Source of the DNA: an uncultured Oscillospiraceae bacterium
GTDB lineage: Bacteria > Bacillota > Clostridia > Oscillospirales > Oscillospiraceae
Reading direction: 5' to 3'
DNA length: 32,381 bases
NCBI GenBank assembly: GCA_947589745.1
Contig: CANQCS010000028.1
Span: 1-32,381 of the forward strand
Position 1 is the first letter of the stretch, and every line of letters starts with the position of its first letter. Positions 3,658-14,805 of this stretch are shown here, in pieces. A program made the translations under genes and the position numbers. Under the pieces are notes generated by a model. It made no database searches and had not been told where the DNA came from. It worked only from the letters and a program-made list of their open reading frames with translations.

Positions 3658-3720
3658 TCATACTCGCGCGGGCGGTGCGCGCCGGCCGCTGAGAATAGTC
3701 CGCCGTGTCCCACTTTCAGG

Positions 3721-3804
3721 ATGCACGGTGGGCTTTCCTCTGCGCCGTTTTGGATGGAGAACACACAAGATCTGAAGGAGAGACAAGGAGAAACGACGAA
3801 ATGA
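3721..3804 (+). CDS. Possible leader ORF (27 codons) overlapping the ABC gene start
   Basis: An ATG at 3721 opens a 27-residue frame (MHGGLSSAPFW...) whose TGA (3802-3804) overlaps the ATG of the ABC gene as ATGA. This is the arrangement expected for translational coupling. It sits in a leader of about 137 nt behind a good promoter. Known background: Bacillus subtilis bmrCD is preceded by a small leader gene, bmrB, that controls expression by ribosome-mediated attenuation. Here the Shine-Dalgarno before 3721 is weak (cagg adjacent to the ATG) and no clear terminator/antiterminator pair was found, so translation is only a possibility. Confidence 0.3.
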   Translation: MHGGLSSAPFWMENTQDLKERQGETTK

Positions 3805-5582
3805 TTTTCGGAAAGCACATCAACCGGTACTATCTCAAATATGGGATATGGCTGGTGCTGGGCGTGGCCGCCCTGGCCATGGTGGACTACATGCAGCTGG
3901 TCCTGCCCAACATGTACCAGATGGTGATCAACGGCATGAACGACGGCCGGGTGCTGGTGGACGGGACTTGGCTGGACTTCAACATGGACTTCCTGCTGGA
4001 CCACATCTGTATGCCTATGGTGTGGGTCATCCTGGCCATCGTGGTGGGGCGGTTCCTGTGGCGTATCTGCATCTTCGGCTCCGCCATCAAGGTGGAGACG
4101 GATATCCGCAACGAGATGTTCGACCACGCCAAGGACCTGAGCCGGGAATACTACCAGGTCAACAAGGTGGGCAACCTGATGAGCCTCTTCACCAACGACC
4201 TGGAGACGGTGCAGGACTGCTACGGCAACGGCTTCCTGATGATGTTCGACGCCATCATCATGGGGGGCATGTCCATCTGGCGGATGTGGCACATGGACCA
4301 GATGCTCACCAGCTTCGCCCTGATCCCCATGGCCTGCCTCCTGGCGGCCAGCACCCTCATCGGCAAGTACATGACCAAGAAGTGGGATATCCGGCAGGCG
4401 GCTTTCTCCGACCTGTCCGACTTCTCCCAGGAGAGCTTCTCCGGCATCGCCGTCATCAAGGCCTTTGTCAAGGAGGGCAAGGAGCTGTGGGCCTTCCGGC
4501 AGCTCAACAAGGCCAATGAGAAGGCCAACGTGGACTATACCCGCATCTCGGTGCTGCTGCGGATCTCCGTGACGCTGTTCGTGGAGTCCGTCATCTGCAT
4601 CATCCTGGGCTATGGCGGCTTCCTGGTGCACCAGGGGACCTTCAACGCCGGGCAGCTGGTGGAGTACATCGTCTACTTCAACTCCGTGGTGTGGCCCATC
4701 ATGGCCGTGTCGGAGCTGATCGACATGACCAGCCGGGGCAAGGCGTCCCTCAAGCGGATCAGCGAGCTGCTGGACGCGGAGCAGGACGTGAAGGACCGGC
4801 CGGACGTAAAGCCCCTGGGGCCGGTGAAGGGCGCCATCGAGTTTAGGCACCTGACCTTCCGCTACCCCGGCGGCGAGTACGACGCCTTGGAGGATATGTC
4901 TTTCTCCATCAGGGCCGGGGAGAGCATCGGCCTGGTGGGCAAGACCGGCGCGGGCAAGACCACCATGGTGGACCTGCTGCTGCGGACCTACAACGTGCCC
5001 GACGGCACCGTCTTCATCGACGGCCACGACGTGAACACCGTCCCCATTCGGGAGGTGCGGGACGCCGTCGCCTACGTGCCCCAGGATAACTTTCTCTTCA
5101 GCGACACCATCGCCAACAATATCGCCTTCTGCCGGGACGGCGCGCCCCAGGCGGCCATTGAGGACGCGGCGGTGCTCAGCGACGTAGACGGCAACATCCG
5201 GGAGTTCTCCCAGGGTTACCAGACCGTGCTGGGCGAGCGGGGCGTCACCGTCTCCGGCGGCCAGAAGCAACGCATCTCCATCGCCCGGGCGCTGATGAAG
5301 GACGCGCCCATCCTGATCCTGGACGACTCGGTTTCCGCCGTGGACACCGAGACGGAGAAGACCATCCTGGAGAACCTGGGCCGCTCCCGGGCCGGGCGGA
5401 CTACCATCCTCATCGCCCACCGCGTGTCCACCATCGAGCGGCTGGACCGCATCATCTACATCGACGACGGCCGCATCGTGGCCATCGGGCCCCATCTGAA
5501 GCTGTACGAGACCTGTCCCAGCTACCGCCACATGGTGGACCTCCAGAAGCTGGAGGAGGAAGGAGGCAAGCGCAGTGCGTGA
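3801..5582 (+). CDS. ABC exporter half-transporter, BmrC-like (degenerate site subunit)
   Basis: Membrane-spanning half of a heterodimeric type IV ABC exporter, 593 aa. The ATG at 3801 has aaggag ten bases upstream; a GTG at 3705 in the same frame lies in the leader and is less likely. The N-terminal 330 or so residues hold six predicted membrane helices. The nucleotide-binding domain has Walker A GKTGAGKTT (380-388), the Q-loop region VPQDNFLFS, signature VSGGQ (484-488), Walker B ending D508 and H-loop His540. The residue after Walker B is Asp509 instead of the catalytic Glu, the hallmark of the non-hydrolysing site in BmrCD/TM287-288-type pairs. The gene overlaps the next one by 8 nt. Substrate is unknown; lipid or multidrug export is the family expectation. 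Confidence 0.9.
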   Translation: MIFGKHINRYYLKYGIWLVLGVAALAMVDYMQLVLPNMYQMVINGMNDGRVLVDGTWLDFNMDFLLDHICMPMVWVILAIVVGRFLWRICIFGSAIKVETDIRNEMFDHAKDLSREYYQVNKVGNLMSLFTNDLETVQDCYGNGFLMMFDAIIMGGMSIWRMWHMDQMLTSFALIPMACLLAASTLIGKYMTKKWDIRQAAFSDLSDFSQESFSGIAVIKAFVKEGKELWAFRQLNKANEKANVDYTRISVLLRISVTLFVESVICIILGYGGFLVHQGTFNAGQLVEYIVYFNSVVWPIMAVSELIDMTSRGKASLKRISELLDAEQDVKDRPDVKPLGPVKGAIEFRHLTFRYPGGEYDALEDMSFSIRAGESIGLVGKTGAGKTTMVDLLLRTYNVPDGTVFIDGHDVNTVPIREVRDAVAYVPQDNFLFSDTIANNIAFCRDGAPQAAIEDAAVLSDVDGNIREFSQGYQTVLGERGVTVSGGQKQRISIARALMKDAPILILDDSVSAVDTETEKTILENLGRSRAGRTTILIAHRVSTIERLDRIIYIDDGRIVAIGPHLKLYETCPSYRHMVDLQKLEEEGGKRSA

Positions 5583-7482
5583 ATATCTCCCCCTGCTGAT
5601 CGTGGGCGCTATCATCGGCTCCTTTGCCGCCATCTTCATCATCGCCTACGCCGGGATCAAGAACAAGAAGGAGGCCATCGGCTTCGACCGGAACGTGCCG
5701 GACGGCGAGATCATCCGGCGGCTCAGCAAGTACGCCCTGCCCTACTGGAGGAGCTTCCTGCTGGTGCTGCTGACCATGCTCTTCTCCATCTCCTACGACC
5801 TCCTCTCCCCCTGGCTGATTGGCCGCATCGAGGGGCTCATCAAGGAGGACTTTGAGCTGAACCGGCTCTTCATGATGGTGGCCATCTACGCCGGCATCCT
5901 GATCGTGTCCCTGGTCTGCACCTACTTCCAGTCCATCATCCTCCAGCGGACCGGCCAGAAGATCCTCTCCGCCCTCCGCGAGGACATCTTCACCCACATT
6001 GAGAGCCTGAGCCACAACCAGCTCAACCAGATCCCCGTGGGCAAGCTGGTGACCCGTGTCTGCAACGACACCAACGCCATCTCCATGATGTTCACCAATA
6101 TCCTGGTGAATCTGGTGAAGAACGTGTTCATCGTCTTCGGCGTGCTGGGCGCCATGCTGATGCTCAACTATATGCTGACGCTGATGATCCTGTGCTTCGT
6201 GCCCTTCCTGGTGCTCTTCACGGTGATCTTCCGCAAGTTCACCCGCCGGGTGTTCCGCCGGGTGAAGGACCGCACCACCGATATCAACACCTACCTGTCC
6301 GAGAACCTGTCCGGCATCAAGATCACCCAGGTCTTCAACCGGGAGGAGGCCAAGCTGCGGGACTTCCTCCGCAAGAGCGAGGAGCTGAAGAAGGCCAAGC
6401 AGGACCAGATCTTCGTCTTCGGCATCTTCCGGCCCATGGTGTATATGCTGTACATCTCCTCCATCCTGTGCCTGCTGTACCTGGGTGGCCGGGGGTATAT
6501 CAAGAGCACCGTCTTCATGGGCCAGATGGTCACCAGCGAGATCGTGGTGTCCTTCTATATGTACGTGTCCAAGTTCTTCAACCCCATCCAGACCCTGGCG
6601 GAGATGTTCAACTTTCTCCAGTCCGCCTTCGCCTCGGCGGAGAAGATCTTCGGCATCCTGGACATGGAGCCGGAGCTGGTGGACGAGCCGGACGCCATCG
6701 ACCTGCCGGAGATCCGGGGCGAGATCGAGTTCAAGGACGTGTGGTTCTCCTATGTGCCCGGCGAGTGGGTGCTGAAGGGCGTCAGCTTCCACGTCCAGGC
6801 CAAGCAGACCGTGGCCTTCGTGGGCTCCACCGGGTCCGGCAAGACCACCATCCTCTCCCTCATCTGCCGGAACTACGACATCCAGAAGGGCCAGATCCTC
6901 ATCGACGGCATCGACATCAAGCACATCAAAATCGCGTCGCTGCGGAAGCACTTCGGCCAGATGCTCCAGGACGTGTTCCTGTTCTCCGGCACCATCCGCA
7001 GCAACATCGTCCTGCGGGAGGAGAGCTTCACCGACGAGCAGGTCATGCAGTCCTGCCGCTACGTCAACGCCGACCACTTCATCGGGCGTCTGGAGAAGGG
7101 CCTGGATGAGCCGGTGCGGGAGCGGGGCAACAACTTCTCCGCCGGCCAGCGCCAGCTGCTCTCCTTTGCCCGGACCGTGCTCCACCGCCCGGCGGTGATG
7201 ATCCTGGACGAGGCCACCGCCAACATCGACACGGAGACCGAGATCCTCATCCAGGACTCCCTGGAGAAGATGAAGAACATCGGCACCATGCTGATCGTGG
7301 CCCACCGGCTGAGCACCATCCAGCACGCGGACAACATCATCCTCCTGTCCCACGGCGTCATCCAGGAGCAGGGCACCCACCAGGAGCTGCTCCACAGGAA
7401 GGGCCGCTACTACCAGCTCTACATGCTCCAGTTCGACGAGCAGGAGCGCAGGAACGCCCTCCGGAACGCGGAGATCGCATAA
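5575..7482 (+). CDS. ABC exporter half-transporter, BmrD-like (catalytic subunit)
   Basis: Partner subunit of 635 aa. The GTG start at 5575 lies inside the end of the upstream gene and is served by the purine run aggaggaaggagg (about 5556-5566). The protein carries an extra N-terminal membrane segment before the usual six helices, as larger partners of this type do. Nucleotide-binding motifs: Walker A GSTGSGKTT (417-425), signature FSAGQ (521-525), Walker B ILDE with catalytic Glu546, and H-loop His577. The non-canonical FSAGQ signature complements the Asp-containing Walker B of the first subunit. The dimer would therefore have one degenerate and one active ATP site. Co-transcription with the upstream gene is clear from the overlap. 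Confidence 0.92.
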   Translation: MREYLPLLIVGAIIGSFAAIFIIAYAGIKNKKEAIGFDRNVPDGEIIRRLSKYALPYWRSFLLVLLTMLFSISYDLLSPWLIGRIEGLIKEDFELNRLFMMVAIYAGILIVSLVCTYFQSIILQRTGQKILSALREDIFTHIESLSHNQLNQIPVGKLVTRVCNDTNAISMMFTNILVNLVKNVFIVFGVLGAMLMLNYMLTLMILCFVPFLVLFTVIFRKFTRRVFRRVKDRTTDINTYLSENLSGIKITQVFNREEAKLRDFLRKSEELKKAKQDQIFVFGIFRPMVYMLYISSILCLLYLGGRGYIKSTVFMGQMVTSEIVVSFYMYVSKFFNPIQTLAEMFNFLQSAFASAEKIFGILDMEPELVDEPDAIDLPEIRGEIEFKDVWFSYVPGEWVLKGVSFHVQAKQTVAFVGSTGSGKTTILSLICRNYDIQKGQILIDGIDIKHIKIASLRKHFGQMLQDVFLFSGTIRSNIVLREESFTDEQVMQSCRYVNADHFIGRLEKGLDEPVRERGNNFSAGQRQLLSFARTVLHRPAVMILDEATANIDTETEILIQDSLEKMKNIGTMLIVAHRLSTIQHADNIILLSHGVIQEQGTHQELLHRKGRYYQLYMLQFDEQERRNALRNAEIA

Positions 7483-7504
7483 TTCTTGAAAAAAGTAAAC
7501 ATAG

Positions 7505-7542
7505 GAAAACGCTGCCCCGCCTTCCGGCGGGACAGCGTTTCC
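7505..7542. terminator. Hairpin terminator between convergent operons
   Basis: Stem gaaacgctg...ccgcc paired with ggcgg...cagcgtttc around a TTCC loop. On the minus strand the stem is followed by a short T run (ttttcc), so it should end the minus-strand ybjQ operon. It can also serve the ABC operon that stops at 7482. Confidence 0.7.
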
Positions 7543-7554
7543 ATATATGCGGCA

Positions 7555-7866
7555 CTATCTGACCTTCACCGCCGTGCCGTAGGCGATGACTTCGGCGGCC
7601 CCCTGCATGACGGAGGAAGACCCGAAGCGGATGTTGATGACAGCGTCCGCCCCCAGGGCCTCCGCCTCGTCTACCATGCGCTTGGTGGCGATCTGCCGGG
7701 CCTCCACCAGCATCTCCGTGTAGCCGGTGATCTCACCGCCCACCAGGGTCTTCATGCCGGCCATGAAGTCCTTGCCGAAGTTCTTGGACTGGACCACCGT
7801 TCCCTTCACGATGCCCAGGGGTTCGATCTCCCTGCCGGGGATATAGTCAATATTGAGCAGCAGCAT
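7555..7866 (-). CDS. YbjQ/UPF0145 family protein
   Basis: A 103-aa cytoplasmic protein of the YbjQ (UPF0145, DUF74) family. Recognisable features are the start MLLLNIDYIPG and the conserved stretch EARQIATKRMVDEAEALGAD followed by DAVINIRF. The family forms compact oligomers annotated as putative heavy-metal-binding, but its function is not established. It is the last gene of the minus-strand operon that begins with the MerR regulator. Its ATG lies inside the 3' end of the preceding gene (20-nt overlap) and its Shine-Dalgarno ggagg is encoded within that gene's tail codons, so translation should be coupled. A hairpin terminator follows. Confidence 0.85.
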   Translation of the reverse strand: MLLLNIDYIPGREIEPLGIVKGTVVQSKNFGKDFMAGMKTLVGGEITGYTEMLVEARQIATKRMVDEAEALGADAVINIRFGSSSVMQGAAEVIAYGTAVKVR

Positions 7867-8113
7867 CAGATTCTCCTCCTTCGATCTCTCGATATCTCTG
7901 TTTTAACGCCCACAGCGCGGGCAGGAACAACAACATACAGCCGGCCGCCGAGACTGCGCAGATCCATTTTGCCGCTACCGGCATGTCCGGCAGGAAGCAC
8001 AGCGCCAGCAGCCCGGCCGCCAGAGGCAGCAGGATCGCTCCCAAAAACAGCACGCCCCGGCGGGCCTCCCGCTTTTTCCGGCGGTGGCGCGCCTCAATAC
8101 TTTCTGGCTTCAT
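7847..8113 (-). CDS. Small two-helix membrane protein with EIxxGExDxAxxY tail (third copy)
   Basis: I do not recognise a named family. The protein has 88 aa: a very basic N-terminus (MKPESIEARHRRKKREARR), two hydrophobic helices (roughly residues 21-40 and 48-67) and the C-terminal tail RYREIEGGESDAAAQY. The ATG at 8113 is chosen because ggagg lies seven bases upstream; a GTG at 8122 in frame is worse placed. Its start overlaps the preceding gene's end by 20 nt. It matches the two preceding small proteins and the end of the MerR regulator in layout and tail, so the four appear to be paralogous membrane hairpins. By the positive-inside rule both ends should be cytoplasmic. Confidence 0.75.
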   Translation of the reverse strand: MKPESIEARHRRKKREARRGVLFLGAILLPLAAGLLALCFLPDMPVAAKWICAVSAAGCMLLFLPALWALKQRYREIEGGESDAAAQY

Positions 8114-8357
8114 CCTCTTCACCTCCGTCGATTTCCTTCAGTCTTGCCTTTAAATTGATCCAGATGGGGAGGATGCTCCCCAGTTCCAGGACCAGGATCA
8201 CCAGCAGCAGCTTGGACGGGAGGCTGTCCGGGGGTCTCCCCATCCGCAGCCACAGCAGCAGGGCCGCCGCGGCCAGGCGGATGATGGTAGCGGACACCGC
8301 GCCCAAGAATGCCTCCCGCTTCCGCTCCCGCTGGGCGTCAGTACTTTTTGGCTTCAT
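8094..8357 (-). CDS. Small two-helix membrane protein with EIxxGExDxAxxY tail (second copy)
   Basis: Unnamed 87-aa protein: basic N-terminus (MKPKSTDAQRERKREA), two hydrophobic segments (about residues 17-36 and 48-67) and the tail ARLKEIDGGEEDEARKY. The start codon ATG at 8357 is made from the Asp-Glu codons of the previous gene's tail (gATGaa). The tail of this gene in turn encodes ggaggtgaagaggatg, the Shine-Dalgarno and ATG of the next gene. A product is supported by the conserved length, layout and tail among three neighbours. Function is unknown; a role as partner or competitor of the membrane-anchored MerR protein is inference. Confidence 0.75.
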   Translation of the reverse strand: MKPKSTDAQRERKREAFLGAVSATIIRLAAAALLLWLRMGRPPDSLPSKLLLVILVLELGSILPIWINLKARLKEIDGGEEDEARKY

Positions 8358-8604
8358 CTTCTTCCCCGCTGTCGATCTCCTTCAGCCGCTGGCACATGGC
8401 GACCACCACGCCCACGATGATGGCGCCCACCGCCAGGACATAGACGCCCAGGATGGGGAGCACCACCCATCCAATGGCCTCCACGTTCGCGAAGCGGATG
8501 ACGCCCATGGCCGCAAGGATGACGAGCACGATGGGCAGCAGCACCGCCGTCACCAGGATGCCCACCACCACGGGGGCGATCTTCTTTCTAGTATTGTTTT
8601 GCAT
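8338..8604 (-). CDS. Small two-helix membrane protein with EIxxGExDxAxxY tail (first copy)
   Basis: Unnamed 88-aa protein starting MQNNTRKKIAPVVVG: a short basic N-terminus, two long hydrophobic helices (about residues 9-34 and 43-69) and the tail QRLKEIDSGEEDEAKKY. Its ATG (8604) lies in the last codons of the MerR gene (17-nt overlap), with ggaga eight bases upstream inside that gene. Of the three small proteins it most resembles the C-terminal hairpin of the MerR regulator, as if that domain had been duplicated without the DNA-binding part. Confidence 0.75.
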   Translation of the reverse strand: MQNNTRKKIAPVVVGILVTAVLLPIVLVILAAMGVIRFANVEAIGWVVLPILGVYVLAVGAIIVGVVVAMCQRLKEIDSGEEDEAKKY

Positions 8605-9238
8605 CGTCGATCTCTCCTTTCCCGATCTCTTTGATCCGCTGGAATAGCGCCAGCAGCACCCCGCCGATGACCCCCAGGGGCACCGCCAGGAATATCACCA
8701 TCAGCCACCACGGCGGCGCGTTCTCCGGGGAGGACAGGATCGCCCACAGGAACACCCCGATGACGGCCGCCATCAGCGCCACCATCACCGCCGCCGCGGC
8801 CACCGGGGCCACGTACCGCACCCGGATGTCCTGGCGGCCGGTGTCCTGGAAGGACGCCCCCGCCTGCTCCAGCTGCTCCATCTCCTGGAGCACCGCCTGA
8901 GCGTCCAGCTCACTGAGGGGCATCTCCCGCTCCTTCAGCAGCTGGCACAGGCGGATGGACTCCTCCAGGTTCTGCTTCTCCCGCTCCAGGGTCACCAGAT
9001 GGCGGCGCATCCCGTCGCCTACGGTCTGCTGGCCCTCCTGCATCCGCCGGATCTCGGAGATGGGCACCCCCAGCTTGCGGAGGAGCTTTACCCGGCGGAG
9101 GGTCTCCACCTCGGCGTCCCCATAGTCCCGGTAGCCGTTCTCACTGTTGCGGCGGGGGGACAGCAGGCCCTGCTCCTCGTAGAACCGGATGTTCTTTTTG
9201 GTCACCCCGACCAGGGCCTCCACCTCGTTGATCTTCAC
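8588..9238 (-). CDS. MerR-family regulator with C-terminal membrane hairpin
   Basis: DNA-binding regulator of 216 aa. The GTG at 9238 gives the canonical MerR opening MKINEVEALVGVTKKNIRFYEEQGLL and has gagg eight bases upstream; a GTG at 9247 abuts that site. Residues 1-70 are the winged helix-turn-helix (NGYRDY included). Residues 76-125 form a long coiled helix of the dimerisation type. Two membrane helices follow at about 142-168 and 177-199, and then the tail QRIKEIGKGEIDDAKQY. A membrane-anchored MerR protein is unusual. It heads an operon of overlapping genes and is preceded by a promoter with a 19-bp spacer and a dyad, the usual MerR autoregulation layout. The signal it senses is unknown. 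Release by the neighbouring intramembrane protease is a hypothesis. Confidence 0.85.
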   Translation of the reverse strand: MKINEVEALVGVTKKNIRFYEEQGLLSPRRNSENGYRDYGDAEVETLRRVKLLRKLGVPISEIRRMQEGQQTVGDGMRRHLVTLEREKQNLEESIRLCQLLKEREMPLSELDAQAVLQEMEQLEQAGASFQDTGRQDIRVRYVAPVAAAAVMVALMAAVIGVFLWAILSSPENAPPWWLMVIFLAVPLGVIGGVLLALFQRIKEIGKGEIDDAKQY

Positions 9239-9261
9239 CAGCAGCACCTCTTTTCACCCCT

Positions 9262-9292
9262 ATTGTAATCCTTCCACCAGGGGGAAAGTCAA
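9262..9292 (-). promoter_or_regulatory. MerR-type promoter of the regulator operon
   Basis: On the minus strand the -35 box TTGACT (9292-9287) and -10 box TACAAT (9267-9262) are 19 bp apart. That is the over-long spacing activated by MerR proteins. The spacer contains the imperfect dyad CTTTCC-N7-GGAAGG. The stop codon of the upstream protease gene lies inside the -35 box, so the operon may also receive read-through. Confidence 0.75.
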
Positions 9293-10038
9293 GGGGATGG
9301 CTGGATTTTTTGCAGATTTTGGTAAACTTTCGTGGCCAGACAGGCCACCAGCGCCGTGACAGCCACCGTGGCCAGCTCCGCCGCTGCCACGCCCGCTGTG
9401 GCGTTGAGGACCACGGCCAGGAAGTCCACCGCCGCGTGGGCCAGAACGGCAACGCAGAACAACCGCCCCTTTCCCGGCTGCCGCACGGCGACGAACACCA
9501 GCACAGAGTTGCACACATGGAGTGCCACCGCCGCCACCCGCTCCAGGGCCGCCCACAAAAACATCCCCGCCGGGGCAGCTGCCACGGCCTGGGCCGCTGA
9601 GAGGACCGCCGGGTCCGTGATGGCGCCGCTCTGCAGCATAGACAGCAGGAGCAAGTTGTTCACCATGGTCACACCAACCACCAGCACCGCCTCCGCCCCG
9701 CCGTGGCCCGCGCCGTAGGCCAGGGCTGTGGCGGGGGCGGTGTGCTTTTTCAGGAAGAAGCGGAAGGCCACGAACCGTCCCGTCTCCTCAAAGAGCCCAG
9801 CCGCCAGTCCGCCATAGAGGCCGTAGAGCCAGATGGTATTTTGGACGGCCCCGCCCAGGGGACTTCGGAGCACCAGGGTGTGGAGGAGCTGTTCCAGCAC
9901 CAGGGCGAAGAGGACGAAGGTCCCCGCGCCGGTGAAGAAGTCGGACCACCTCCCTCCCATGCGCCGGTACCACAGCATCAGGCCCAGCGGCAGAGCCAAG
10001 GTCAGTAGCCCGGTGAACGCGATCGCTGCCGTCTGCAT
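9289..10038 (-). CDS. YhfC-family intramembrane protease
   Basis: Polytopic membrane protein of 249 aa, about seven or eight hydrophobic helices. It matches the YhfC group of CAAX-like glutamic intramembrane proteases: paired glutamates in FEETGRF (E84/E85), YGAGHGGAEA (H112, E116) and LAHAAVDF (H201, D205), each within a membrane helix. The ATG at 10038 is preferred because aaggga lies at normal distance; the ATG at 10047 directly abuts the Shine-Dalgarno. It precedes the membrane-anchored MerR gene in the same direction and ends inside that gene's -35 box. It has its own 19-bp-spacer promoter with a similar dyad. These facts suggest one regulon. The substrate is unknown, and proteolytic activity is assigned by family only. 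Confidence 0.85.
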   Translation of the reverse strand: MQTAAIAFTGLLTLALPLGLMLWYRRMGGRWSDFFTGAGTFVLFALVLEQLLHTLVLRSPLGGAVQNTIWLYGLYGGLAAGLFEETGRFVAFRFFLKKHTAPATALAYGAGHGGAEAVLVVGVTMVNNLLLLSMLQSGAITDPAVLSAAQAVAAAPAGMFLWAALERVAAVALHVCNSVLVFVAVRQPGKGRLFCVAVLAHAAVDFLAVVLNATAGVAAAELATVAVTALVACLATKVYQNLQKIQPSP

Positions 10039-10097
10039 GGAAATCATCTCCCTTCTGTTTTCGGGGCCGCGGCGCCGCCGCGCCCCTGGATGAGGCT

Positions 10098-10128
10098 ACC
10101 ATACACCATCCAGAAAGTGGAAGGTCAA
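10098..10128 (-). promoter_or_regulatory. MerR-type promoter of the YhfC-family gene
   Basis: On the minus strand -35 TTGACC (10128-10123) and -10 TATGGT (10103-10098) are separated by 19 bp. The spacer carries the dyad CCTTCCA-N5-TGGATGG. It resembles the promoter at 9262-9292 (CTTGAC, TTCC and GGAxGG at equal positions), which implies control by the same regulator. Confidence 0.7.
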
Positions 10129-10169
10129 GTGGTTTTTGAAAATTTTTTTCAAAAATCTTGACGTTCCAC
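10117..10169. repeat. Long imperfect inverted repeat mirroring the -35 region
   Basis: Arms of about 24 nt: gtggaaggtcaag...tttttgaaaa on the left, and ttttcaaaaa...cttgacgttccac on the right. The left arm contains the -35 box and half-operator of the YhfC-gene promoter. The right arm repeats the same bases in the opposite orientation without a matching -10 box. It may be a terminator-like hairpin or a second binding site. Confidence 0.6.
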
Positions 10170-10942
10170 AGGGGGGATAGGGGGCGGAGCCCCACAGTGC
10201 CAATCTGTAGGGGCCTCCGGCCCCTACCACCTCTTATAAATATTTTTAGTGCTTGCCAGCACCCTGGGGTACTTTTCCCACGCGGGAAAAGTACCCAAAA
10301 GGGCGCCAGCCCGTAGGGCTGGACCTCTAACTAATTTTTGTTAAGGGCAGATGGATGGTGGGACTAGGGGCCAGAGAAAGCATTCATCGGGGGTGCTGTT
10401 TTGTTTTTGCCGTATTCCTACTGCTGGTTGCTCCGTTCCACTACGCAATTGATAGCGCGGTTCTTGTCGGGCCGTCAACGGAAATCTGTCCTGTGCGTAG
10501 TGGAACGGAGCAGAATGCAGTACGACGCGGGCCGTATGCGGAAATCCACCAATTGCGTAGTGGAACGGAGCAACCAGCAGTAAGACAAAGTAAAAACCGA
10601 CCAACGCACCCAATGTGTCCGTGCACCAGCGCTTCCCTCTCCTTGGGGACATACTCACTGTAGCCGCTTCGCCCCTATACACGGGACCCGGCCCGGTTTA
10701 GACAAAACCAGCCAAAGGGGGAGCGTAGACAAAAACAAAAAATGAGGAAAGATTTTTAAGAAAACCTCGGTTTTCTTAAACGTGCTTTTGGGTACTTTTC
10801 CCACGGGGGAAAAGTACCCCAGGGGCGCACCCATCGGGGGTGCGCATCAGACCTGGGTGGGGGCGGAGCCCCCACGCCCCCCCGTTTGACATCCGGCAGA
10901 TTTAGGAGTACAATACCAGCAGATATTTTAATAGGAGTGATC
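10170..10942. repeat. Intergenic region with full-length composite repeat copy B
   Basis: No gene is supported here. Copy B runs from about 10263 to 10885. It starts with a gtacttttcc/ggaaaagtac hairpin (about 10269-10294), followed by gggcagatggatggtggga and actaggggccag. The inverted core (10426-10450) is followed by two direct cores (about 10493-10512 and 10551-10575). Then come the module tttagacaaaaccagccaaa, an aagaaaacc hairpin, a second gtacttttcc hairpin and GC-rich palindromes. Short open frames on both strands follow the repeat and do not look like genes. Bases 10170-10262 hold only GC-rich palindromes. Confidence 0.75.
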
Positions 10943-11687
10943 ATGTACGTCATACTTCACTTATAAGACCGACGTCCGCTATAGCGACGTCGGTCTGGAC
11001 AGTCGCCTCAGTTGGCAGGGGCTGCTGTGTATCCTGCAGGAGGCCGCCGCCGTGGCCTCCGACGAGGTGGGCTACGGCATCAAGGATATCCCTGTCACCG
11101 GCGTCCACTGGATCTTGAGCGGCTGGCGGGTGCAGTTTCTGGAGCGCCCCGCCTGGCGGGCCCCTATCACGGTCCGCACCTGGCCCAGGACCTTCGATGG
11201 GTTCCTGTCGGAGCGCGACTTCCTGGTGTACAGCGGCGACACGCTGGTGGCCCGGGGGTCCTCCCGGTGGTTCCTCATCGACGCAGTCACCGGGCACATC
11301 ACCCGGGTGACGGACACCGTCCGCAGCGCCTACGCCACGGACAGCCGTACCGTCTTCGACGAGCCCCTGCCCTCCAACGGCAGGAGCCCCGCCAGCGCCG
11401 CCGTCACGTTCCAGTCCGTTGTGAGCCGCCGGGACATCGACACCAACCACCACGTCAACAACATCCACTACCTGGACTACGCCATGGAGGCCCTGCCGGA
11501 GGAGGTGTTCCAACATCTGCCTGACACGGTGGAGATCGTGTTCCGCCGCCAGATGCGGCTGGGGTCCCCCTTCCGCTGCCTCTACTCCCGGACGGAGGAC
11601 GGCAAGCACCTGGTGGAGATCCAGAGCGACGGGAGCAACGGCAAGCCGGTCCACAACGCCTTCGTATGGTTCTATGATGGGAAATAG
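10943..11687 (+). CDS. Acyl-ACP thioesterase (FatA/FatB type), start out of frame
   Basis: Hydrolyses acyl-ACP to free fatty acid. The double hot-dog fold of plant FatA/B and bacterial relatives is recognisable from YFTYKTDVRYSDVGLDSRLSW through DTNHHVNNIHYLDYAM, whose Asp, Asn and His are the expected catalytic residues. The thioesterase frame extends upstream to a stop at 10938-10940 but has no ATG, GTG or TTG before the GTG at 11052, which would remove the conserved first strand. An ATG at 10943 with a good aggag is one base out of frame: removing the T at 10946 would give MTSYFTYKTDVRYS. Either a real frameshift, a sequence error or a non-standard start is involved. The next gene follows after 32 nt. 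Confidence 0.75.
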
Positions 11688-11719
11688 TAAGATTTGAACT
11701 GGAGAAAAGAGGGAAACAC

Positions 11720-12997
11720 ATGAACGATCTGCTGACCTTTCTCGCGGGCAGTCCCAGCCGCTTCCATGCGGTGGCGAATCTGTCCCGGCGGCTGACCGAG
11801 GCGGGGTACATCCGCCTCTCCGAGAGCCGGACCTGGGAGCTGGCCCCCGGCGGGAAGTACTTCGTCACCCGCAACGGGTCCGCCCTGCTGGCCTTCCGCG
11901 TGCCCAGGCGGGACTTCACCGGGTTCATGCTCTCCGCCAGCCACAGCGACCACCCCTCTTTCCATGTGAAGGAGAACGCGGAACTGCCCGGCGTGGAGGG
12001 CTATGTCCGGCTGAACACGGAGCGCTACGGCGGACAGCTGTTGTCCACCTGGGCGGACCGGCCCCTCACCGTGGCGGGCCGCGCCCTGGTGCGGGCGGGA
12101 GACGCCATCGAGACGCGGCTGGTCTACATCGACCGGGACCTGCTGCTGATCCCCAACGTGGCCAGCCACATGAACCGGGCCGCCAACGACGGCTTCAAGT
12201 ACGACCCCAAGTGCGACACTTTGCCCCTGCTGGGCATCGGCGAGGCCAAGGGGACTTTCCGCGCCCTGGTGGCCCAGGCCGCCGGGTGTGAGGCCGGGGA
12301 CATCCTGGGCACGGACCTGTACCTGTGCCTGCGGCAGAAGCCGGTGCAGTGGGGCGCGGAGAACGAGTTCATCTCCGCCGCCGCCCTGGACGATCTCCAG
12401 TGCGCCTACGGGTGCTTCGAGGGCTTTCTGGCCGCCGCGGACAGCGACAGCGTCCCGGTGTACGTCCTGCTGGACAACGAGGAGGTGCACAGCCTCACCA
12501 AGCAGGGCGCCGACGGCACCTTCCTCCGCGACCTGGTGGACCGCGTCTGCGCAGCCCTGGGCCGCGACAGGGCCACGGCGGTGGCCAACAGCTTCCTGGT
12601 CTCCGCCGACAACGCCCACGCCGTCCACCCCAACCACCCGGAGTACGCGGACCCCACCCACCGGCCGGTGATGAACGGCGGCGTGGTCATCAAGCACGGC
12701 GTGCGGTACGCCACCGACGGCGTGGCCCAGGCGGTGTTTATCTCGCTGTGCGAGAAGGCGGGCGTGCCGGTTCAGTACTTCGCCAACCGCTCGGATCTGC
12801 CTGGCGGCGGCACGCTGGGGTTGATCTCCAGTTCCCATGTGTCGCTGAACACCGTGGACGTCGGGCTGGCCCAGCTGGCCATGCACTCCTGCTTTGAGAC
12901 CGCCGGGGCCAGGGACACCGATTATCTCATTGCCGCCATGAGGGCGTTCTATTCTTCCTCCTTCCGGGAGGAGAACGGGGTGTTCCTCCTGGCGTGA
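11720..12997 (+). CDS. M18-family aminopeptidase
   Basis: Cytoplasmic zinc aminopeptidase of 425 aa that removes N-terminal residues (acidic ones in characterised relatives), a normal family length. The ATG at 11720 has agaggg upstream. Metal and catalytic positions are visible in order: H75-S-D77, D224 in ALDD, the DNEEVH block (252-257) with E254/E255, D297 in SADNAH, and H389 near the C-terminus. The gene follows the thioesterase gene by 32 nt and is probably co-transcribed; no metabolic link is evident. A GC-rich palindrome just after the stop (agggggctccgccccct) may act as a 3' hairpin. Confidence 0.93.
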   Translation: MNDLLTFLAGSPSRFHAVANLSRRLTEAGYIRLSESRTWELAPGGKYFVTRNGSALLAFRVPRRDFTGFMLSASHSDHPSFHVKENAELPGVEGYVRLNTERYGGQLLSTWADRPLTVAGRALVRAGDAIETRLVYIDRDLLLIPNVASHMNRAANDGFKYDPKCDTLPLLGIGEAKGTFRALVAQAAGCEAGDILGTDLYLCLRQKPVQWGAENEFISAAALDDLQCAYGCFEGFLAAADSDSVPVYVLLDNEEVHSLTKQGADGTFLRDLVDRVCAALGRDRATAVANSFLVSADNAHAVHPNHPEYADPTHRPVMNGGVVIKHGVRYATDGVAQAVFISLCEKAGVPVQYFANRSDLPGGGTLGLISSSHVSLNTVDVGLAQLAMHSCFETAGARDTDYLIAAMRAFYSSSFREENGVFLLA

Positions 12998-13382
12998 AGG
13001 GGGCTCCGCCCCCTGGGGTCGTCATGGTGGGGACCTCCGGTCCCTGCTGACCCTGGGTTACTTTTTGTGCAAACAAAAAGTAACCAAAAAGTTGCTCAAG
13101 GGGGCGAAAGCCCCCTTGAGAATCCCCGGGGATGACGTTCAGGGCAGATGGCCGGTTTGGACTAGGGGCCAGGGAAAGCTTTCATCGGGACTGCCTCCTT
13201 GTTTTCCGTAGTCCGACTGCCGGTTGCTCCGTTCCACTACGCAATTGAGGGCGCGCTACGTGTTGGCGCCTCCACATGAGAAAGATCTGGCGGATATCGC
13301 TTGAATAGAAAAGGGGCAGAACAGACAGCTCCTATAAACTCCCGTTCATAGTTTTACGCATCGAAGGTGCACCAGACAAGTG
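12998..13382. repeat. Intergenic region with partial composite repeat copy C
   Basis: No gene is seen. A hairpin ggttactttttg/caaaaagtaacc lies at 13056-13085. The left half of the composite repeat follows at about 13130-13250: gggcagatgg, actaggggccagggaaagc and the inverted core ending gcaatt (13222-13246). The right half is missing. I see nothing recognisable from 13260 to 13382. Confidence 0.65.
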
Positions 13383-13421
13383 AAAAAGCCCCCGGCTTTC
13401 TCGGGAAAGCCGGGGGCTTTT
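13383..13421. terminator. Bidirectional terminator after the citrate operon
   Basis: A perfect GC stem, aaaagcccccggcttt with aaagccgggggctttt, around a short loop. It has A and T runs on the two sides, so it would terminate the minus-strand operon ending at 13441. Confidence 0.88.
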
Positions 13422-13440
13422 GCGGGCACGAACTCGGTGC

Positions 13441-14805
13441 TTAGAACACCATGATCCGCATGATGATGGCGAAGATCATGCACAGGATGGAGAAGCCCCA
13501 GATGTAGAAGAAGGAGGCCTTGATGTGGTCCTTGATGTCCACGTCGGCCAGGCCGACGCCCAGCAGGGTGGCGGGCACCATGGGGCTGATGAAGGTGGCG
13601 CAGTTGCGGCAGACCACCATGGCGATGGCGATGTGGATGGGATCGATGCCGAAGCCCTCGCCGATGCCGATCATGACGGGCAGCATGCCATAGAAGTAGC
13701 TGTCGGTGTCGAAGGCCAGGGCCAGAGGCACGGACAGGACGCCGATGACGATGGGCAGGTGACGGCCCAGAACGTCGGGCAGGATCATGGTGATGATGTC
13801 GGCCATGCAGGTGACCACGCTGGGGATCTCATCGACTTCCTTGACCAGGATACCCATGAGGACGGCGGCGCCCATCAGGGTGGAGCACATCATCAGAGCG
13901 GGACCGGCGTGGAGGTTGATGATCTTCTTGTGCATCTTGGCGGTGAAGCCGTAGTTGACGAACAGAGCCACGGCGACGCCCAGCATGAAGGGCAGGTAGT
14001 CGGGGAACCAGCCCTTGATGAGCAGGGCGATGACGCCAACAGTCAGCAGGATGTTGAAGGCAAACAGCTTGGGACGGGCCAGGTCGTTGGTCTCGGCGGC
14101 AGCGGCGGGGGCGTCGCCGGTGAGGGTGACAGTGCCCTCGGTCTGGGCCAGCTTGCCGGCCAGACCGGCGCCGCGCTTCTGCTCCTGAAAGCCGGCCAGG
14201 ACGGCGTGGGCCAGGACGATCACGATACCGAAGATCTGGATGGGCAGCAGGGTGTGCCACAGGCTGGCGGGCTCAATGCCCAGCACGGTGGCGGCGCGCA
14301 TGGTGGGACCGGCCCAGGGCATCAGGTTCAGGATGCCCATGCCCATGACGGCCACGCGGAGCAGGGTGGTGGGACGCATGTGCATCTTCTGGTACACCGG
14401 CAGCATGGCGGGGACCACGATACAGAAAGTGGAGGCGCCGCCGCCGTCCAGGTGGCCGATGAGGGCGATAATGGCGGTCATGACGGTGACACCGATGACG
14501 TTATCGCCCACCAGCTTCATCAGCTTGCCGATGATGACGTCGAACATGCCGGCGTCGGTCATGATGCCGAAGTACAGCACCGAGAAGACGAACAGGGCCG
14601 CGGTGGGACCGGTACTGGAGAAGCCGGCTTTTACCAGATCGCCGATCTGGTCCAGGTTGTAGTAGCCGCCGATGCAAAGGGCAATGGCCAGGATGGCCGG
14701 GAACACGATGAACGCCACACTGGGGACGGTACGGCTCTGGAACAGCACCACCACGATGACGGCGATGCACAGGAAGCCGAGTATGCCGACAACAGTCGTA
14801 CTCAT
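13441..14805 (-). CDS. CitMHS-family citrate:cation symporter
   Basis: Integral membrane transporter of 454 aa with about a dozen hydrophobic helices. The conserved CitMHS block GHLDGGGASTFCIVVPAMLP is present. Characterised relatives (Bacillus CitM and CitH) import citrate complexed with divalent metal ions together with protons. The ATG at 14805 has agaggt seven bases upstream. It lies downstream of citDEF on the same strand, after a 184-nt spacer containing three hairpins, and is followed by a strong terminator. This gives a coherent uptake-plus-cleavage unit. Substrate assignment as citrate rests on family and context. Confidence 0.88.
   Translation of the reverse strand: MSTTVVGILGFLCIAVIVVVLFQSRTVPSVAFIVFPAILAIALCIGGYYNLDQIGDLVKAGFSSTGPTAALFVFSVLYFGIMTDAGMFDVIIGKLMKLVGDNVIGVTVMTAIIALIGHLDGGGASTFCIVVPAMLPVYQKMHMRPTTLLRVAVMGMGILNLMPWAGPTMRAATVLGIEPASLWHTLLPIQIFGIVIVLAHAVLAGFQEQKRGAGLAGKLAQTEGTVTLTGDAPAAAAETNDLARPKLFAFNILLTVGVIALLIKGWFPDYLPFMLGVAVALFVNYGFTAKMHKKIINLHAGPALMMCSTLMGAAVLMGILVKEVDEIPSVVTCMADIITMILPDVLGRHLPIVIGVLSVPLALAFDTDSYFYGMLPVMIGIGEGFGIDPIHIAIAMVVCRNCATFISPMVPATLLGVGLADVDIKDHIKASFFYIWGFSILCMIFAIIMRIMVF

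Follow-up and report, generated by a model that had tools for sequence, protein, structure and literature searches.

Why does a gene for a MerR-type regulator that ends in a membrane hairpin stand in one run with genes for small membrane hairpins, a YbjQ protein and a YhfC protease, and what might these proteins do together? The question comes from a draft genome (4.05 Mb, 252 contigs) of an uncultured Oscillospiraceae bacterium, GenBank assembly GCA_947589745.1, where the genes lie on contig CANQCS010000028.1. We analyzed positions 1 to 32,381 of this contig and refer to the whole stretch of 32,381 nucleotides as the window. An initial annotation, made from the letters alone, had called six genes here and proposed that they form a membrane-signalling module. 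All six are where it placed them, on the minus strand and in one direction. Reading from 10128 down to 7555, the order is a promoter, yhfC, a second promoter, the regulator gene (we call its product MerR-TM, for its transmembrane hairpin), three small hairpin genes and ybjQ.

Our answer, held with slightly better than even confidence, is that MerR-TM is a membrane-anchored, self-amplifying sensor of envelope stress, with YbjQ as the likely partner of its tail and YhfC as a co-regulated protease. The idea of membrane signalling was probably right in outline. The parts of the locus are as follows (E, expectation value; ORF, open reading frame).

10102..10128, minus strand: promoter/operator of yhfC, MerR type, with the -10 region running to 10098 (pattern scan of the genome)
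9289..10047, minus strand: yhfC, putative intramembrane metalloprotease, 252 amino acids, 6 predicted transmembrane segments (PF10086, E 2.4e-45)
9266..9292, minus strand: promoter/operator of the MerR-TM cassette, MerR type, with the -10 region running to 9262 (pattern scan, 0 mismatches)
8588..9247, minus strand: MerR-TM, 219 amino acids, with winged-helix helix-turn-helix (HTH), dimerisation helix, two-helix membrane hairpin and tail (PF13411, E 8e-21)
8591..8641, minus strand: C-terminal tail of MerR-TM, QRIKEIGKGEIDDAKQY, common to the small hairpins
8338..8604, minus strand: small hairpin 1 (SP1), type A by eye, 88 amino acids, tail QRLKEIDSGEEDEAKKY (ORF and phmmer)
8094..8357, minus strand: small hairpin 2 (SP2), type B by eye, 87 amino acids, tail ARLKEIDGGEEDEARKY (ORF and phmmer)
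7847..8113, minus strand: small hairpin 3 (SP3), type B by eye, tail QRYREIEGGESDAAAQY (ORF and phmmer)
7555..7866, minus strand: YbjQ/UPF0145 protein, 103 amino acids, no transmembrane segment (PF01906, E 3.7e-38)

Two of the starts can be placed differently. MerR-TM may begin at a GTG at 9238, and SP3 has 88 amino acids from its ATG and 91 from an upstream GTG at 8122, so the 87–88 residues first given for the hairpins are right provided that SP3 begins at its ATG. The genes overlap by 17 bases between MerR-TM and SP1 and by 20 bases at each of the SP1/SP2, SP2/SP3 and SP3/YbjQ junctions, and the second promoter sits in the gap of about 41 bases between yhfC and MerR-TM and in the last bases of yhfC. 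In the overlaps (8588-8604, 8338-8357, 8094-8113 and 7847-7866) the tail DNA also encodes the start codon of the next gene and apparently its ribosome-binding site. This compact coding overlap recurs with every hairpin copy, at four successive junctions. No Rfam families were found in positions 7000-13500 of the window.

A MerR protein with a predicted membrane hairpin

The window protein scores 74.4 bits against the MerR profile PF13411 (cut-off 21.6), which identifies its winged-helix HTH as MerR type, and solved MerR proteins match it both by profile and by fold (Foldseek). Hydropathy gives two hydrophobic stretches at the C-terminus. An AlphaFold model built with 23 sequences has a mean pLDDT of 87, with low confidence for the last seven residues; it places the HTH in helix 6-25 and the 44-70 region, followed by helices at 76-106, 116-128, 141-172 and 180-218. 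The C-terminus is related to the small proteins in phmmer searches (MerR-TM against SP2, 6e-8, and against SP1, 1e-6; SP2 against SP3, 2e-7), which bears out the first impression that the small proteins look like the hairpin of the regulator alone. In an alignment of 23 MerR-TM proteins, the window's and 22 from relatives, the Arg, the Glu and the final Tyr of the tail are invariant.

The well-studied MerR regulators are soluble sensors. MerR-TM shares with activators of the CueR/BmrR type the winged-helix HTH, the dimerisation helix, a promoter with a 19-bp spacer and an inverted repeat, and the position of the operator before its own gene and, in relatives, before exporter genes. It differs from them in that a membrane hairpin and a conserved cytoplasmic tail replace the C-terminal effector domain, and in its link to hairpin proteins, YbjQ and YhfC. 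We found no description of a membrane-anchored or transmembrane MerR protein, or of a MerR protein with YhfC or YbjQ, in the open-licence literature, and a word search of a MerR review (PMC9909328) gave no instance of "membrane" or "transmembrane". One-component regulation by MerR proteins is known, whereas for the partners seen here (hairpins, YbjQ, YhfC) we found no described system in that literature, in agreement with the original remark that no described system has this set.

To see how far the arrangement extends, we used a single genome scan and inspected the best 80 of at least 553 relatives, which are hence the closest kin of the window; some of these genomes also belong to a sample of 150 family genomes. 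Most of the 80 are metagenome bins, labelled Oscillospiraceae, Oscillibacter, Lawsonibacter, Pseudoflavonifractor, Flintibacter or Dysosmobacter, with further labels of unplaced Clostridia, Acetatifactor, Tyzzerella and Lachnospiraceae. In all 80 MerR-TM is followed within 1.7 kb by a ybjQ gene of the same orientation, and in 79 of them one to four small hairpin genes lie between the two. With order and strand of MerR-TM and YbjQ constant throughout the 80, the arrangement is not due to chance, and the conservation of neighbours that the initial annotation had named as a check is there. Several loci (L087-L090, L092, L097, L098, L103, L119) have about 1.4-1.55 kb between MerR-TM and YbjQ. The longest ORF in this gap in L090 and L098 is on the other strand (244 amino acids, MGIFSF...) and would split the cassette between hairpins 1 and 2.

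Beyond the closest kin, MerR-TM is present in 26 of the 150 family genomes as judged by match length; 62 of the 150 have some match at 1e-10, and the remainder are other MerR proteins as far as match lengths tell. In samples of the order and the class (245 and 291 genomes), G333 was the one genome outside the family in which full-length MerR-TM was seen.

The operator and the genes behind it

The MerR-TM promoter consists of TTGACT, a 19-bp spacer, TTCCCCCTGGTGGAAGGAT, holding a CueR-like dyad, and TACAAT, which is the geometry of MerR promoters, whose spacers of 19-20 bp hold an inverted repeat. The yhfC promoter is built in the same way, with TTGACC, the 19-bp spacer TTCCACTTTCTGGATGGTG holding the dyad, and TATGGT. 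Written as a site, the operator has the form TTGACNTTCC-N7-GGANGG. Among 97 non-redundant loci, 92 have such an element before MerR-TM, with the 19-bp spacer and of constant length. Four of the five misses (L086, L110, L133, L137) have yhfC directly upstream, so MerR-TM may be co-transcribed with it there, and L133 shows a decayed element; in the fifth, L070, the element apparently lies about 600 bases further up, judging from L282, a contig of equal length. By script, the element also precedes yhfC in 15 of 18 loci, and the three misses are two start-codon miscalls (L069 and L072, with the site visible in L072) and a deviating site (L066). In the genome that holds the window the element is found only before yhfC and MerR-TM, both at up to 1 mismatch (0 in a reversed control) and at up to 3 (2 in the reversed control). 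Such a MerR-type promoter before both MerR-TM and yhfC is what is new here, and we infer that MerR-TM binds it.

There is near identity between the site and both the CueR signal, ACCTTCCC-5-TGGAAGGT (PMC1526738), and the copA promoter, TTGACCTTCCCCTTGCTGGAAGGTTTA (PMC9004249). This raises the possibility of copper or heavy-metal resistance of the CueR kind, and YbjQ itself carries the label "putative heavy-metal-binding". The proteins do not fit this. MerR-TM of the window scores 53.3 against the CueR equivalog profile (cut-off 147.4), and its single Cys, at position 101, lies in the predicted dimerisation helix. CueR metal sensors carry a metal-binding Cys pair in a C-terminal loop; no such pair is present here, and in the AlphaFold model the membrane hairpin takes the place of that loop. 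The window YbjQ contains zero Cys and zero His, so that metal binding by it is doubtful despite the label, although other residues could still act as ligands. There is also no metal exporter among the recognised target classes, where one example per class was checked. We rejected metal resistance on the profile score, the Cys/His content and the target classes, and regard it as extremely unlikely.

To find what else the operator precedes, we scanned 400 family genomes and found 74 exact sites in 55 genomes, with 0 for the reversed pattern. The first recognised gene is MerR-TM at 44 sites, YhfC at 9, a MacA-type adaptor at 9, an ATP-binding cassette (ABC) ATPase with a 535-amino-acid permease at 3, a beta-lactamase-fold serine hydrolase at 4 and cardiolipin synthase at 1. 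Named gene classes thus follow 70 of the 74 sites, and the other four are unrecognised (L229, L233, L286, L293). A hairpin or YbjQ comes next at 42 of the 44 MerR-TM sites and two run off the contig; MerR-TM follows at 8 of the 9 YhfC sites. Two of the 9 MacA sites are behind a TetR gene, and MacB genes follow in all except L256, where the stretch is short. The reference proteins for the target classes were chosen from the sites after inspection, and their names are backed by family searches on one example per class: the MacAB example reaches 180 bits for RND_mfp (cut-off 94.9) and also matches HlyD, MacB_PCD and FtsX, the cardiolipin synthase example reaches 332 bits (cut-off 290), and the hydrolase matches PF00144. 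The example of the 535-amino-acid permease had no family match.

The 16 genomes in the 400-genome sample that have targets outside the module all carry MerR-TM, 13 by a MerR-TM site and three by a separate check. In the 150-genome sample, where 26 of 150 have MerR-TM, it is present in all five whose outside target is recognised (hypergeometric P 1e-4, uncorrected for relatedness), and when unrecognised outside sites are added it is present in 7 of 8 (P 2e-5, likewise uncorrected). An association over all sites (18 of the 19 site-bearing genomes among the 150, P 4e-16) was dropped as evidence: the pattern derives from MerR-TM promoters, so the promoter of the gene itself is among the sites counted. 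Taken as a set, the targets suggest an envelope-stress regulon, and one would expect such a set as a response to damage by membrane- or wall-active compounds. The exporters, cardiolipin synthase and beta-lactamase-fold hydrolases behind the operator in relatives back the membrane or envelope role first proposed for the locus.

Outside the module there are 17 recognised sites, and 12 of them precede exporter genes. This would also fit a drug-sensing MerR protein whose own hairpin is the binding site for lipophilic drugs within the membrane, with the hairpin and YbjQ genes as accessories and no signalling between tail and YbjQ. Loci that lack small hairpins keep MerR-TM and YbjQ, and in at least five of them (L047, L049, L051, L056, L060) the ABC ATPase-permease pair directly follows YbjQ, as this explanation would allow. 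However, it leaves unexplained both the tail that MerR-TM has in common with the hairpins and the constant YbjQ neighbour, and we consider it unlikely. G823 (L212), a genome of another family, is an independent link of the hairpin and YbjQ parts to an exporter: genes for MacA, the MacB ATPase, the MacB permease and YbjQ run in one direction there, with a gap of about 185 bases between permease and YbjQ, and a tail-bearing hairpin is divergent from MacA.

The operator also bears on YhfC. The window protein belongs to the YhfC family (PF10086, 155.2 bits, cut-off 24.2) and shares its conserved acidic and His motifs; it stands apart in having its gene behind a MerR operator. The stretches FEExGR, GHGGxEA and ER..H, whose residues we take to be catalytic, are present in 19 of 19 aligned YhfC proteins (two from one genome). 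The annotation had made YhfC a member of the module that may release or degrade the MerR anchor. Because yhfC carries the same operator, it probably does belong functionally, although it is no fixed part, being upstream of MerR-TM in 16 of the best 80 loci. The role of releaser finds no support as it was put. If YhfC cut MerR-TM from the membrane and the free regulator then activated genes, its place beside MerR-TM, the common operator and its intact putative catalytic residues would be accounted for. However, the examined stretch has no YhfC in the other 64 of these 80 loci (the stretch being what was searched in those genomes), and a quick tree of 94 MerR-TM proteins, in which some long branches meet, calls for 9 changes in the presence of YhfC (5 or more when judged by starred branches); 15 of the 17 carriers fall within a single set of 27. 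The operator moreover puts YhfC downstream of the regulator, a better fit to feedback. Since YhfC is both downstream and optional, it is unlikely to be the main switch and more likely to be a member of the regulon, and we give proteolytic release a low probability. No YhfC substrate was found among the open-licence papers listed, the YhfC passage of PMC7939560 included.

The shared tail and YbjQ

MerR-TM and nearly all small hairpins end in a tail with the consensus RxxEIxxGEExxAxxY-COOH. By eye there are two hairpin types, one of the first position (SP1) and one of the last (SP2, SP3), and a third, very short tail-bearing membrane protein of 54-56 amino acids lies between MerR-TM and the other hairpins in L104, L117, L140 and L141. 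Matches of the small hairpins to known families (holin, PspM, TerC and others) were below threshold and are taken as chance. For SP3 we rejected PspM, as it falls short of the curated profiles (NCBIfam 22.2 bits against 80, Pfam 23 against 27.7).

The tail codons contain the next start codon, so gene overlap could by itself explain why the tail is conserved: its codons would be held in place by the ribosome-binding site and start of the next gene, and the protein sequence would be a by-product. Among 283 listed tail ORFs, 243 do have the next start inside the tail, mostly 17 or 20 nt before the end (final residue Tyr in 235, Phe in 6 and Asp in 2). The remaining 40 are non-overlapping, and we excluded three of these (L065, L067, L175) as non-tail proteins. 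All 37 true tail genes that are left keep the tail with different codons, often with GluGlu where overlap forces Asp; Arg, Gly and the final Tyr are present in 37 of 37, and the Glu after Gly and the Ala in 36. The filter for tails accepted only ORFs with a hydrophilic end whose final 18 residues include a Glu next to a following bulky residue, aliphatic or aromatic. The conservation of these features is therefore partly built in, and the filter shut out tail-less hairpins like the one in L122; many rows of the set, the 37 included, are related sequences. The tail is conserved at the protein level, and we rejected overlap as its sole cause; that the tail is a mere by-product is very unlikely.

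A protein that reads the tail was not part of the initial annotation, and the shared tail together with the constant YbjQ suggests that YbjQ could be that reader. Our model of the window YbjQ (a monomer) matches YbjQ, DUF74 and RcsF structures by VIA-align and Foldseek, and the protein has the same family match and fold as the known YbjQ/UPF0145 members (PDB 1y2i, 1vr4, 2gtc). It differs from these in its link to a membrane regulator and to hairpins with tails, and in having neither Cys nor His. RcsF is an outer-membrane lipoprotein that feeds a phosphorelay, whereas YbjQ here is predicted to be cytoplasmic and the output is a MerR protein; we claim no membership in the Rcs system. Solved YbjQ/UPF0145 members are pentamers, and 1vr4 has two folds inside one pentamer (PMC2954204).

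Outside the family, too, related hairpins directly precede YbjQ, and there they typically end in ERIKEIRSGEEDDLSKY. The pairing of hairpin and YbjQ thus extends beyond the MerR fusion and probably predates it. In a phylum sample of 249 genomes, seven beyond the window's own genome have a hairpin at 2.5e-5 or better, and YbjQ is directly downstream in six of them. In the order sample, 32 YbjQ loci are high-scoring, and 24 of these have a tail-bearing hairpin directly before YbjQ (in L191 it belongs to a MerR-TM); none of the 15 low-scoring loci has one, and one locus was unscored. A broader and more tentative idea, which we think falls well short of even odds, is that YbjQ is a general cytoplasmic reader of a tail code, RxxEIxxGEExxxxxY-COOH, on small membrane hairpins across many Bacillota, an inside-facing counterpart of RcsF that perhaps switches through the two-fold pentamer. 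In Oscillospiraceae the hairpin would then have been fused to a MerR domain, giving a one-protein route from membrane to DNA, with exporters, cardiolipin synthase and an intramembrane protease of its own under its control.

The flanks of the cassette hold some further features. Converging on ybjQ is a gene pair at 3705-7482 (plus strand), the second gene of which is a clear exporter-type ABC half-transporter by family search; the 26 loci inspected for it showed no pair of this kind next to the cassette. On the other side, an acyl-ACP thioesterase gene (family search) at 11052-11687 (plus strand) is divergent from the cassette and is followed at 11720-12997 (plus strand) by a gene for what we take to be an M18 peptidase. 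The thioesterase gene recurs in 6 of the best 80 loci and its downstream gene in 4. Upstream of yhfC, two 40-nt arms (10262-10301 and 10785-10824) are 95% complementary and 483 nt apart, each with a palindrome (GGGTACTTTTCCCACG...), and further repeats lie between them at 10405-10596, so that the region resembles a small repeat element.

Weighing the reading and a possible mechanism

Several observations weigh against a MerR-TM envelope-stress sensor with YbjQ as its partner. The evidence loci are the best-scoring 80 of at least 553. Among them, 5 MerR-TM proteins end in Phe and not Tyr, and YhfC is an optional neighbour. At least 860 bases separate MerR-TM from YbjQ in 15 of the 80, and an opposite-strand ORF lies in the gap in some loci (e.g., L090 and L098). 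The tight packing first noted is even tighter in the window than had been said, with its overlaps of 17-20 bases, but these wide gaps mean that it is not universal. The small hairpins vary too: over 105 loci (the window, 24 of the 150-genome sample and the 80 best-scoring ones, with some genomes counted twice) they are absent in 15, and 14 of the 25 more distant loci (150-genome sample, window included) have none. The module of MerR-TM, hairpins and YbjQ is real and conserved, but the hairpins are not a fixed part of it. Where there is a single hairpin it ends in Asp in L100 and L121, and the hairpin of L122 has no tail; 8 of the 32 high-scoring YbjQ loci likewise lack a tail hairpin. Tail binding by YbjQ is an argument from guilt by association.

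The operator adds points of the same kind. It resembles that of CueR, so likeness alone cannot name the MerR protein that binds it, and other MerR proteins could use the site. Two genomes, G129 (85% complete) and G1098 (82%), carry the site, and MerR-TM was not found in either. The strict pattern is missing from 8 of the 26 MerR-TM genomes in the 150-genome sample, which have variant sites. The window's own genome shows no operator targets beyond the module, so the link to stress comes from the relatives.

With these points in mind, the sensor could work as follows. A MerR-TM dimer would sit on the 19-bp-spacer promoter while the C-terminal hairpin spans the membrane and the tail faces the cytoplasm. 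A disturbance of the membrane, or a lipophilic compound in it, would alter hairpin packing or tail engagement, and the dimer would twist the operator and turn on its own cassette and, where present, yhfC. In relatives it would also turn on cardiolipin synthase, beta-lactamase-fold hydrolases and two kinds of ABC exporter, one of them of the MacAB type. More hairpins and YbjQ would then come from the cassette, and YbjQ, whose solved relatives form pentamers of the RcsF fold, would most likely bind the common tail and couple MerR-TM to the small hairpins. The new hairpins would compete with MerR-TM, so that the response is damped, and YhfC would probably trim hairpins or MerR-TM and reset the system. 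The nature of the signal, the contact between tail and YbjQ and the substrate of YhfC are what we infer in this scheme.

If true, this would be a previously undescribed bacterial way of sensing envelope damage. Common gut bacteria would have a new path from envelope to DNA in this conserved, membrane-anchored branch of MerR proteins and the regulon that belongs to it, and the operator lets regulons be read from sequence. The YbjQ and YhfC families, both poorly understood, would be tied to a testable process, as would a hairpin family that has no name, and the reading of tails by YbjQ, if true, would supply a function for the YbjQ family.

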